Shown one piece after another: positions 6,271 to 63,028 of a DNA stretch of 64,000 bases (position 1 is the stretch's first letter; each line of letters begins with the position of its first letter). Made by a program: the position numbers and the translations under genes. The notes beneath the pieces were generated by a model that saw only the letters and a program-made list of their open reading frames with translations, did not search any database and was not told where the DNA came from. The stretch covers positions 1 to 64,000 of the forward strand of contig CAMNGC010000003.1 of assembly GCA_946537885.1 (NCBI GenBank), in the 5' to 3' direction. The DNA comes from an uncultured Clostridia bacterium. GTDB lineage: Bacteria; Bacillota; Clostridia; Saccharofermentanales; Saccharofermentanaceae.

Positions 6271-8096
6271 CGGCCACCTGCCTTTCCGAATAGTTCTGCC
6301 TTGTAATCAGGCGCCTTGACCTGAAGCAGGTACCTCTCATTACCGCATCGATACAGGCATGTTCCTCTCTCCGGATATTTGATGAGTTCATACTCAGACG
6401 GTTCGATCTGGAGCGCATCCATGAAATCCTTCGGGTTGATCTGTCCGGGATTAAACATAAACTGGTGTGTCGGAATACTGAAGAGCGGTTTGGTTAGTTC
6501 CTTTATCCCCTGGATAAGGAAGTCCTCAATGTTCTGAGAAGCCAGGATAACTGTTGATTCCTTCTTTCGAACACGCTTCATGGCGTTACGAATATACTCG
6601 ATTGCCGTCATGTTCGTCAGGAAAAGGTAGAGCTCATCAATAGATGCTGCTGTGTATCCATCTCCCAAAAGCTTGTTGCTCATATAGGAAAGAATATTGA
6701 AAAGCATTGCATCCTTGAGCTTTTTATTGGTATCTAGTAGCCCCTTAACACCAAAAACTAAAAATTTATCATCAGAGATATTGGTATGACCGTTGAAGTA
6801 TTTGCTCTCAGCACCCTTGCACATTGAGTTGATACCGAGACAGATATCCTGCAGGATATCCATGGTGTAGAGGTACTTTCGATGCTCATCGTAGGCGTAG
6901 AATTCCTCTTCACAGATGTCATAGAAGTCTTGGACAGTGGGATAATCCGTTGGTTTAAGCCTCTTGAAGTCGGTGCTATCTTCAATACCGAATCGACTGT
7001 ACAGCTTCTTCAGTAGAATCTCGATGGTATCAATATGCTTCTGCTTGAAGTCATCATTGTAGGTCTTGAAGAAATCCTTCAAGAAAGAAATATGCTGTGA
7101 CAGGCGTGTTGCTTTACGAAAAGCTTCCGGAGAATCCTTATCGAAATCCTCGTTACCATCTGTCCATGCCTTCGGCTCTAGTGGATTAATGATGTGTTCA
7201 CCGGTAGTGAAATCGATGTAGCATCCGCCAAGGTTGTTACACAGATCCTCGTACTCATGCTCAGGGTCAAGAACGATAATGTTCTTGCCGGACTCACGGA
7301 TATTAGTAAGAATCAGCTTCATGAGGTAAGATTTGCCCTGACCTGAGTTACCAAGGATCAGGATATTGCTGGTTGTTTTGTCTTCAGCTCGACGGTCGAA
7401 ATCAACGAGAATGTTGGTCCCGTACTTGTCTCTTCCGAGATAAAGTCCCTTGGGATCCGTCTTGCCACTGAAGTTAAACGGAAAGAAGTTTGCCACGGAA
7501 CTTGCCGGAAGCACTCGTTCGAACTGATCTCCAAACTGGTTGGATCCCATAGGAACTACCGAAAGAAAGCCTTCCTTCTGCCTAAGCATGAGCTTATCCA
7601 CCTCGATATGAGACCTCTGAAGCTCCATGTCGATCTCTGACTGGAGTTCTTTAAGATTATCGATACTATTCGCCTTAAGCTCGATGAAGATAGAAGAATG
7701 GAGGAGAGGCTCCTTATTCTTACGGAGATTACTGAGCATCTCCACAACATCCTGAAGGTTCTCGCTCGCCTGTATCGTCTCGTTCACATCATTACTTGTG
7801 GACTGCATCGTATTCTTACGGGCAGCATCCTGGATGATCTTTCTCTGTTCCAATGGCTCCACGAGCCTATTAAAAAACCGGAGTGTAACTCCGGCCTTGT
7901 CAGATAACTGCGACAACAGTGCCTGTGCGTCAGTAGTGGGCGGGTAACTTTTGATCGCCCATGCACACTTATACGAGTTACCGCATATGTAGTAATCCGT
8001 ATAGAACTTAACGACCCCCGGCAGGATACAGTCGAAGAAGTCCTTTGTACGGACCTCTTCAACCTGCTCAGGAGTCATAACTCTTTGTTTTGCCAT
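6267..8096 (-). CDS. VirB4-type conjugation ATPase
   Basis: A 609-residue cytoplasmic ATPase that powers the type IV secretion channel. The Walker A motif GNSGQGKS is near residues 249-256 and the Walker B-like ASIDELYLF near residues 483-491. DPEHEYEDL after the Walker A is typical of VirB4/TraC proteins of Gram-positive elements. Length is normal to slightly short for the family. It follows a 102-base gap with palindromes and overlaps the downstream hydrolase gene by four bases. Confidence 0.92.
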   Translation of the reverse strand: MAKQRVMTPEQVEEVRTKDFFDCILPGVVKFYTDYYICGNSYKCAWAIKSYPPTTDAQALLSQLSDKAGVTLRFFNRLVEPLEQRKIIQDAARKNTMQSTSNDVNETIQASENLQDVVEMLSNLRKNKEPLLHSSIFIELKANSIDNLKELQSEIDMELQRSHIEVDKLMLRQKEGFLSVVPMGSNQFGDQFERVLPASSVANFFPFNFSGKTDPKGLYLGRDKYGTNILVDFDRRAEDKTTSNILILGNSGQGKSYLMKLILTNIRESGKNIIVLDPEHEYEDLCNNLGGCYIDFTTGEHIINPLEPKAWTDGNEDFDKDSPEAFRKATRLSQHISFLKDFFKTYNDDFKQKHIDTIEILLKKLYSRFGIEDSTDFKRLKPTDYPTVQDFYDICEEEFYAYDEHRKYLYTMDILQDICLGINSMCKGAESKYFNGHTNISDDKFLVFGVKGLLDTNKKLKDAMLFNILSYMSNKLLGDGYTAASIDELYLFLTNMTAIEYIRNAMKRVRKKESTVILASQNIEDFLIQGIKELTKPLFSIPTHQFMFNPGQINPKDFMDALQIEPSEYELIKYPERGTCLYRCGNERYLLQVKAPDYKAELFGKAGGR

Positions 8097-20036: not shown

Positions 20037-20108
20037 GGTGCAGCAAATGAACTATCGTATAAATCCATCTGTTTGAAATTTGAATATCTGCTGCACATTT
20101 GCTGCACC
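20037..20108. repeat. 13-bp perfect inverted repeat near the ICE/chromosome junction
   Basis: GGTGCAGCAAATG (20037-20049) and its exact reverse complement CATTTGCTGCACC (20096-20108) lie 46 bases apart, between the last ICE cargo gene and the lysS stop codon. Recombinase binding sites at ICE ends often have this form. No matching copy at the other end is available in the window, so the boundary is not proven. Confidence 0.4.
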
Positions 20109-47336: not shown

Positions 47337-47471
47337 CTCGGGTAACGATTCCGGTTACGATTCTCGGAAAACGTTACCACTTTCGTTACCCGACGGCGAT
47401 TTCCGGCCTCGGGTAACGATTCCGGTTACGATTCTCGAAAAACGTTACCACTTCCGTTACCCGACGGCGAT
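47337..47471. repeat. Two tandem 71-bp units, each a GTAACG palindrome
   Basis: Copies at 47337-47400 and 47408-47471 differ at three positions only. Each unit contains outer arms CGGGTAACG and CGTTACCCG and inner GGTTACG / CGTTACC arms with one mismatch. They lie between the dfx terminator and the 3' end of the lipoprotein gene at 47567. Confidence 0.8.
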
Positions 47472-47566
47472 TGATGTCACACCACAAACGCCGTAAGCTC
47501 CGCAAGCGCCCCAAAACGCCGCAGGCACCCCGGACCTCTCCCGCAGACCTCAGTCCTCCTCAGACC

Positions 47567-52180: not shown

Positions 52181-52210
52181 GGGCTTGTTAGTCCGCAGAT
52201 TACCTCCACT

Positions 52211-52231
52211 GTTAACCCAAGCCGGGTTAAC
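52211..52231. repeat. GTTAACCC palindrome
   Basis: GTTAACCC (52211-52218) and GGGTTAAC (52224-52231) form a perfect inverted repeat with a 5-base loop between the two terminators. Possible regulatory site or structure. Confidence 0.5.
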
Positions 52232-52280
52232 ACGCCGGGTAATCTCGGCGAGCTTTCACAATCCCCCCAAAAAGGACAGC

Positions 52281-61353: not shown

Positions 61354-61482
61354 ACACTATTTGTACAAAGACCGACAGTTTTTTGGGAGCTTCTTCACGG
61401 AAGCCTTGGAAATCAACGTTTTTTCACGCAAATTATGCCTGGCAGGCTTTTCGATAAACAGGTCATGGATTAAAAAATAAGG

Positions 61483-62682: not shown

Positions 62683-62727
62683 GCCTTGATTATACACGAT
62701 TTCAAAAGGAGCTTAAATCGGCGGGTG

Positions 62728-63000
62728 CGTCAACAGAAATGGCGTTCAAACCGTAAATCTGTTGACGGGGGCGGCAGCTGCGTCAACAGAAATGGCCTTC
62801 AAACCGTAAATCTGTTGACGGCTGGGGTGGCTGCGTCAACAGAAATGGCCTTCAGACGGCAAATCTGTTGACGGGGCGACGGATGCGTCAACAGAAATGA
62901 CCTCCAGACTGTAAATCTGTTGACGGGAGCGGCAGGTGCGTCAACAGAAATGACCTTCAAACCGTAAATCTGTTGACGGGGGCGACGAGAGCGTCAACAG
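62728..63000. repeat. Tandem array of 53-bp palindromic repeats
   Basis: Five full units start at 62728, 62781, 62834, 62886 and 62939 and a half unit at 62992. Each has arms CGTCAACAGA and TCTGTTGACG around a conserved 20-base loop (AATGGCCTTCAAACCGTAAA type), then 12-13 variable G-rich bases. It lies between nspC and hemW. The 53-base period is not a multiple of three, so it is not coding. Confidence 0.95.
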
Positions 63001-63028
63001 CTGATACAAGCCGAAGCGCCTGCCTAAA

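Follow-up and report, generated by a model that had tools for sequence, protein, structure and literature searches.

Structure and location of the hairpin array

What kind of element is the array of hairpins lying between an nspC-like and a hemW-like gene in this Clostridia genome, and does its position matter for the neighbouring genes? The stretch of 64,000 nucleotides analysed here is referred to as the window, and the genome it belongs to as the host. The array occupies positions 62719–63001 (no strand assigned) and consists of five full units and a terminal half-site. In every unit, two inverted arms of 10 bp each, CGTCAACAGA and TCTGTTGACG, enclose a loop of 20 nt, and spacers of 12–13 nt separate the hairpins. 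The arms were exact in 5/5 units, and the start-to-start distances were 53, 53, 52, and 53 bp. On the plus strand, the hairpins were located at 62728–62767, 62781–62820, 62834–62873 (followed by the 12-nt spacer), 62886–62925, and 62939–62978, and a sixth half-site, CGTCAACAGC, with one mismatch, closes the array at 62992–63001 (plus strand). An earlier note, made from the sequence alone, had described an array of ~53-bp hairpin units with invariant 10-bp arms, and all five units were recovered where it had placed them. TRF reported 62719–63000 with a period of 53 and 5.3 copies. At ≤1 mismatch, CGTCAACAGA occurred 16 times in the window, compared with 3.8 expected (maximum of 10 in 100 shuffles). 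The tested hairpins folded much better than shuffled sequences (z −4.3 to −5.5, 0/200), and folding was strong on both strands (z about −4 to −5.5).

Both neighbouring genes are on the minus strand. The upstream neighbour is an nspC-like PLP decarboxylase gene (PF00278; 63029–64000, running past the window end), the stop of which is approximately 28 bp from the array. The downstream neighbour is a hemW-like gene with Radical_SAM and HemN_C matches (PF04055 and PF06969; 61571–62697, low end approximate), the start of which (62682 or 62697) is 30–46 bp away. The gap between the two genes is filled by the array, and the placing of the array after nspC and before hemW in the earlier note was borne out by these domain matches. 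The promoter for hemW that it had also proposed was not recovered: a consensus scan of the gap yielded neither a promoter nor a terminator, and only a TATAAT just outside the array was seen by eye. A regulatory role at hemW was likewise unsupported, as the family adjoins unrelated genes in both orientations. If the array acts at hemW at all, it most likely does so only as structured 3′-UTR or spacer DNA, and any local effect on hemW is the part of our interpretation held with least certainty. Among the 30 nspC loci that were read, hemW was beside nspC in the host only (0/29 others). As this gene order was not common to relatives, an empty site at nspC–hemW could not be read.

Dispersal in the host genome and conservation of the arms

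The array belongs to a family that is dispersed in the host genome. The exact arm pair occurred 47 times in the host assembly, which is 87.6% complete. When mismatches were allowed, 52 units were found, spread over many contigs in 13 arrays that hold from one to eight units each. Because contigs tend to break at such repeats, array counts in fragmented genomes are minimum values. Based on the ORF lists and our own reading, the neighbours of 12 of the 13 arrays were determined (the thirteenth, on C16, was left out, and the nearest-ORF call is uncertain at C6 and C10). All 12 arrays were intergenic, and none was between divergent genes (0/12). Most were flanked by tandem genes and at least three by convergent genes, the orientation of the arrays to the genes varied, and several were located close after stop codons. 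The check for many intergenic places in the host, suggested in the earlier note, was thus positive, and its alternative of a variable-number switch at a single locus was abandoned in view of the 13 dispersed arrays. In the C2 array, pairs of units are repeated, showing tandem copying. At one locus (L008, 8296–11612), the array was flanked by ClpX-like and trigger-factor-like genes, named by eye from their N-termini, with no listed ORF of ≥60 aa between them.

The arms were nearly invariant. Over the 52 units, 5/1040 arm positions (0.5%) were off consensus, a value obtained from units gathered by their arms at ≤5 mismatches, so that heavily decayed arms would escape detection. By comparison, the inner 13 positions of the loop diverged at 23% and the 13-nt spacers at 26%. 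The loops did vary, as the earlier note had reported, but at more places across the whole family than the few it had seen. In the C27 and C12:35374 arrays, the arms were kept around wholly different loops. The A–A mismatches just inside the arms were nearly invariant in 44 exact 40-mers. Covariation in the loop was not beyond that of shuffles, and an inner stem was rejected for lack of such support; arm changes in this family break pairs and are uncompensated. The low arm divergence could partly stem from recent copying or hairpin-templated correction instead of selection. Of 20 loop positions, 3.4 differed within arrays vs 3.9 between arrays; as loops within an array were only slightly more alike, the copying was not very recent.

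Association with ISL3-type MITEs

Several arrays are flanked by sequences that are repetitive in their own right. The elements at C1:59350 (569 bp) and C12:30147 (726 bp) carry an array between two TIRs of the GGTTCTTCACGGAAAGCTTGGGAT type, the array at C3:74684 has one TIR of this type, and on C9 a half unit is inside an element with such a TIR. In the host genome, 37 ends of this type were counted (≤3 mismatches of the 19-base core), and the terminal repeat was present in 15 of the 85 congeneric genomes, host included. In the congener G088, the same TIR, with one mismatch, bounds a complete ISL3-family IS of 1,455 bp with an ISL3 transposase (PF01610), located at 1166–2620 of locus L122 (contig C161) and flanked by the 8-bp target duplication TTAAAATT; an IS of the same kind was found in the congener G100. 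One MITE of the host shows the 8-bp target duplication TTATTTTT and is the only host copy with a clear exact one. The carrier elements are accordingly classed as ISL3-family MITEs by the TIRs of an autonomous ISL3 element, the 8-bp duplication, and the lack of coding capacity.

The host assembly (87.6% complete) gave 0 matches to the ISL3 transposase domain PF01610. Unlike such MITEs, hairpin arrays are also found where MITE ends are missing. The window array is one of them, as no TIR flanks 62719–63001 and it is therefore not classed as an ISL3-family MITE, and several further arrays are also without MITE ends. A MITE-linked spread is indicated for several copies, the window array not being among them. 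A degenerate match to the ISL3-type terminal repeat (6/24 mismatches) was seen at 61391 of the window, ~1.3 kb from the array. Among the open-licence papers searched, none on ISL3 MITEs carrying tandem palindromes was found.

Search for the family in other genomes

A covariance model of the unit was run against one genome from each of 84 other congeneric species and gave 0 matches. The exact pattern was matched only twice in the 84,980 species of genome_contigs, once each in Runella and Ardenticatenaceae, which is about the level of chance (~1.2 expected by our estimate). The hairpin family was thus seen in no other genome searched. Viral contigs gave 0 matches, plasmids gave short partial matches only (best E 0.02), and phages gave one partial match in an Enterobacter phage (E 0.007, 20% covered, inside a coding sequence). 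As the plasmid and phage matches were taken as chance, a phage or plasmid origin was rejected. A known structured RNA was also rejected, since Rfam held no family matching the unit. Separately, positions 6936–6987 of locus L009 matched the Streptococcus sRNA SpF59 (RF02440) above the gathering score. Among the literature matches listed for the exact 10-mer, none was on such repeats by title and abstract.

Comparison with known repeats and proposed architecture

The family was compared with described repeat systems. BOX elements of Streptococcus have the order boxA–boxB(n)–boxC with a variable number of boxB, and in S. suis boxE and boxF surround the same boxB (PMC3049150). The present family resembles BOX in having a variable number of tandem ~50-bp modules between differing flanks and in being dispersed, intergenic, hairpin-forming, and likely non-autonomous. 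The BOX architecture of left module, tandem central modules, and right module was found at C1:59350 and C12:30147, compared by layout only, and the central module stood alone at other loci, window included. Modules have been exchanged around the arms, as a given left module occurs with differing right modules, whether 53-bp units are present or not. In contrast to BOX, every unit of the present family carries a pair of exact inverted arms, the flanks are ISL3-type MITE ends, and several unrelated array families have one common layout.

Neisserial NIMEs combine dRS3 (ATTCCC-N8-GGGAAT) with RS units of 30–160 bp in about 700 copies (PMC3898611). In both systems, intergenic arrays are made of short, conserved inverted repeats with more variable stretches between them, but here the period is fixed at ~53 bp and the units number about 52. 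REP/BIME sequences are likewise dispersed palindromes near 3′ ends that form arrays; here, the loops are longer, the ~53-bp period is fixed, and there is an association with MITEs. The REP-associated Y1 transposase PF01797 was absent from the host assembly (87.6% complete) while controls were positive, and the arrays are not assigned to a REP/RAYT system. From the REP/BIME-like reading of the earlier note, the dispersed palindromic intergenic family was retained, but several copies proved to be internal modules of ISL3-type MITEs and the family is nearer to BOX than to REP. Its remark that the layout is unlike CRISPR was upheld, since both the 20-nt loops and the 12–13-nt spacers are related between units.

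Taken together, the window array is probably one copy of a dispersed, non-coding, non-autonomous, BOX-like repeat family that is partly borne by ISL3 MITEs, with arms putatively kept for recognition or recombination. Of this reading, we are fairly confident in the modular, BOX-like nature of the repeat and in its carriage, in part, by ISL3 MITEs. In this reading, the 53-bp module comprises arm, 20-nt loop, inverted arm, and 12/13-nt spacer and is repeated one to eight times, and arrays of it are either bare in intergenic, mostly 3′-end DNA or set between exchangeable left and right ISL3-type MITE modules. An ISL3 transposase acting in trans may move the MITE-borne copies, and slippage or unequal recombination may cause arrays to grow and shrink. 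The arms would be kept through recognition of their sequence by a factor or a recombination process, and the period of ~5 helical turns would keep the units on one face of the DNA. Short interspersed repeats are common in bacteria, and their internal geometry is rarely explained. The present family would add a well-populated BOX-like system tied to an identifiable IS family.

Unrelated arrays of similar geometry and the role of the arms

Inverted arms alternate in the same way in other arrays of the host and its congeners, the sequences of which are unrelated; their periods were mostly 50–54 bp, and some were 64–65 or 71–73 bp. In the host, the half-sites of the array with ACCACAGA arms were 27/26 apart (units of 53 or 64), those with TAATGC arms 30/23, and those with ACCAACTGA arms 26/26, and an array with GGGAA arms had 12/17/12/13 = 54. 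Among the congeners, G060 had arrays with periods of 51, 65, and 71 bp besides its 52-bp TCAGACTA array, G005 had periods of 52 and 50, and G021 had periods of 73 and 72. When five of these families were combined in a DNA query, each was recovered from one or a few species. Seven units of the TCAGACTA family, chosen from three species, all had an identical arm core but diverged in their interior, and one arm change was compensatory (G060).

The scan covered 580 kb of the host (the window, six array-holding loci, and 398 kb of stretches not picked for arrays) and 400 kb from G005, G060, and G070 on contigs already known for arrays or terminal repeats, and is thus a partly unbiased sample only. 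In these stretches, most tandem repeats with a period >40 bp outside long ORFs carry inverted arms, and some of them partly overlap ORFs. When 16 period values were tested for phase against 10.5 bp, p was about 0.003; this test was made post hoc, on families that may be interdependent and with one of them counted twice, and the fit is poor for 65 and 71 bp. To our knowledge, such sequence-unrelated families of nearly equal repeat length have no described precedent, and none was found in the open-licence literature.

Several explanations compete for the role of the arms. Because they are invariant while the loops vary freely, it is conceivable, though we would not expect it, that they are sites of a sequence-specific DNA-binding protein and that the arrays are phased platforms for nucleoid organisation, boundary formation, or regulator titration, with differing arms for differing proteins. 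The mean period of 52.6 bp (5.0 turns), the post hoc phase value over the three period classes, and the TCAGACTA arm core retained in three congeners with its compensatory change are consistent with such platforms. Against this, there is no candidate protein, the arrays are not biased towards promoters, 65 and 71 bp cannot be divided cleanly by 10.5, and the clustering of periods may instead have arisen from a common origin of the layout or from the mode of hairpin-array expansion. That the arms are instead recombination or integration sites, where modules, loops, and foreign elements are exchanged, is doubtful. The dRS3 of neisserial NIMEs provides a precedent (PMC3898611), whole loops were swapped between intact arms, and in C27 and both C12 arrays the junction of a foreign ~105-bp element with CGTCAACAGA is exact, two arm copies flanking the element in C12; yet plain homologous recombination between repeats would yield the same junctions.

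It is unlikely that the arrays act as RNA, in the form of 3′-UTR hairpin trains with a stabilising or attenuating effect on transcripts, like that of some BIMEs. The hairpins are strong on both strands, several arrays come just after stop codons, and none is between divergent genes, but the units face either way relative to genes, the loop shows no covariation, the arm changes break pairs uncompensated, and Rfam gave no match. An assembly artefact or chance repeat was refuted and is extremely improbable: such repeats do break assemblies, and contigs of relatives end in the terminal repeats, but the copies are dispersed over 13 separate places and individually distinct in loops and spacers.

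Beyond the BOX-like family itself, we consider it a rather unlikely, speculative extension that there is a genus-wide class of helically phased dyad arrays, in which unrelated, species-restricted arms would have a common geometry (inverted half-sites in alternation, with a period of ~5, sometimes 6 or 7 turns) kept by selection as platforms for fast-diversifying proteins that bind or recombine DNA, and ISL3 MITEs would serve as their vehicles. As similar periods and layout recur in unrelated arrays, their cause, whether protein phasing, hairpin-driven expansion, or module exchange, is testable by comparing families.

Further repeats were observed during the scan. A perfect 70-bp tandem repeat of 2.5 copies (100% match), mostly outside long ORFs, was found on contig C1 of the host (G000; locus L169, 6516–6691), and no inverted arms were detected in it. 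In the window, a tandem array of unrelated sequence with a period of 71 bp and TCGGGTAACG arms is located at 47337–47472, where it partly overlaps an ORF. Imperfect or short inverted repeats are present at 20037–20108 and 52197–52245, the latter resembling, by eye only, the GGATTACC..GGTTAACCC module inside the MITEs.
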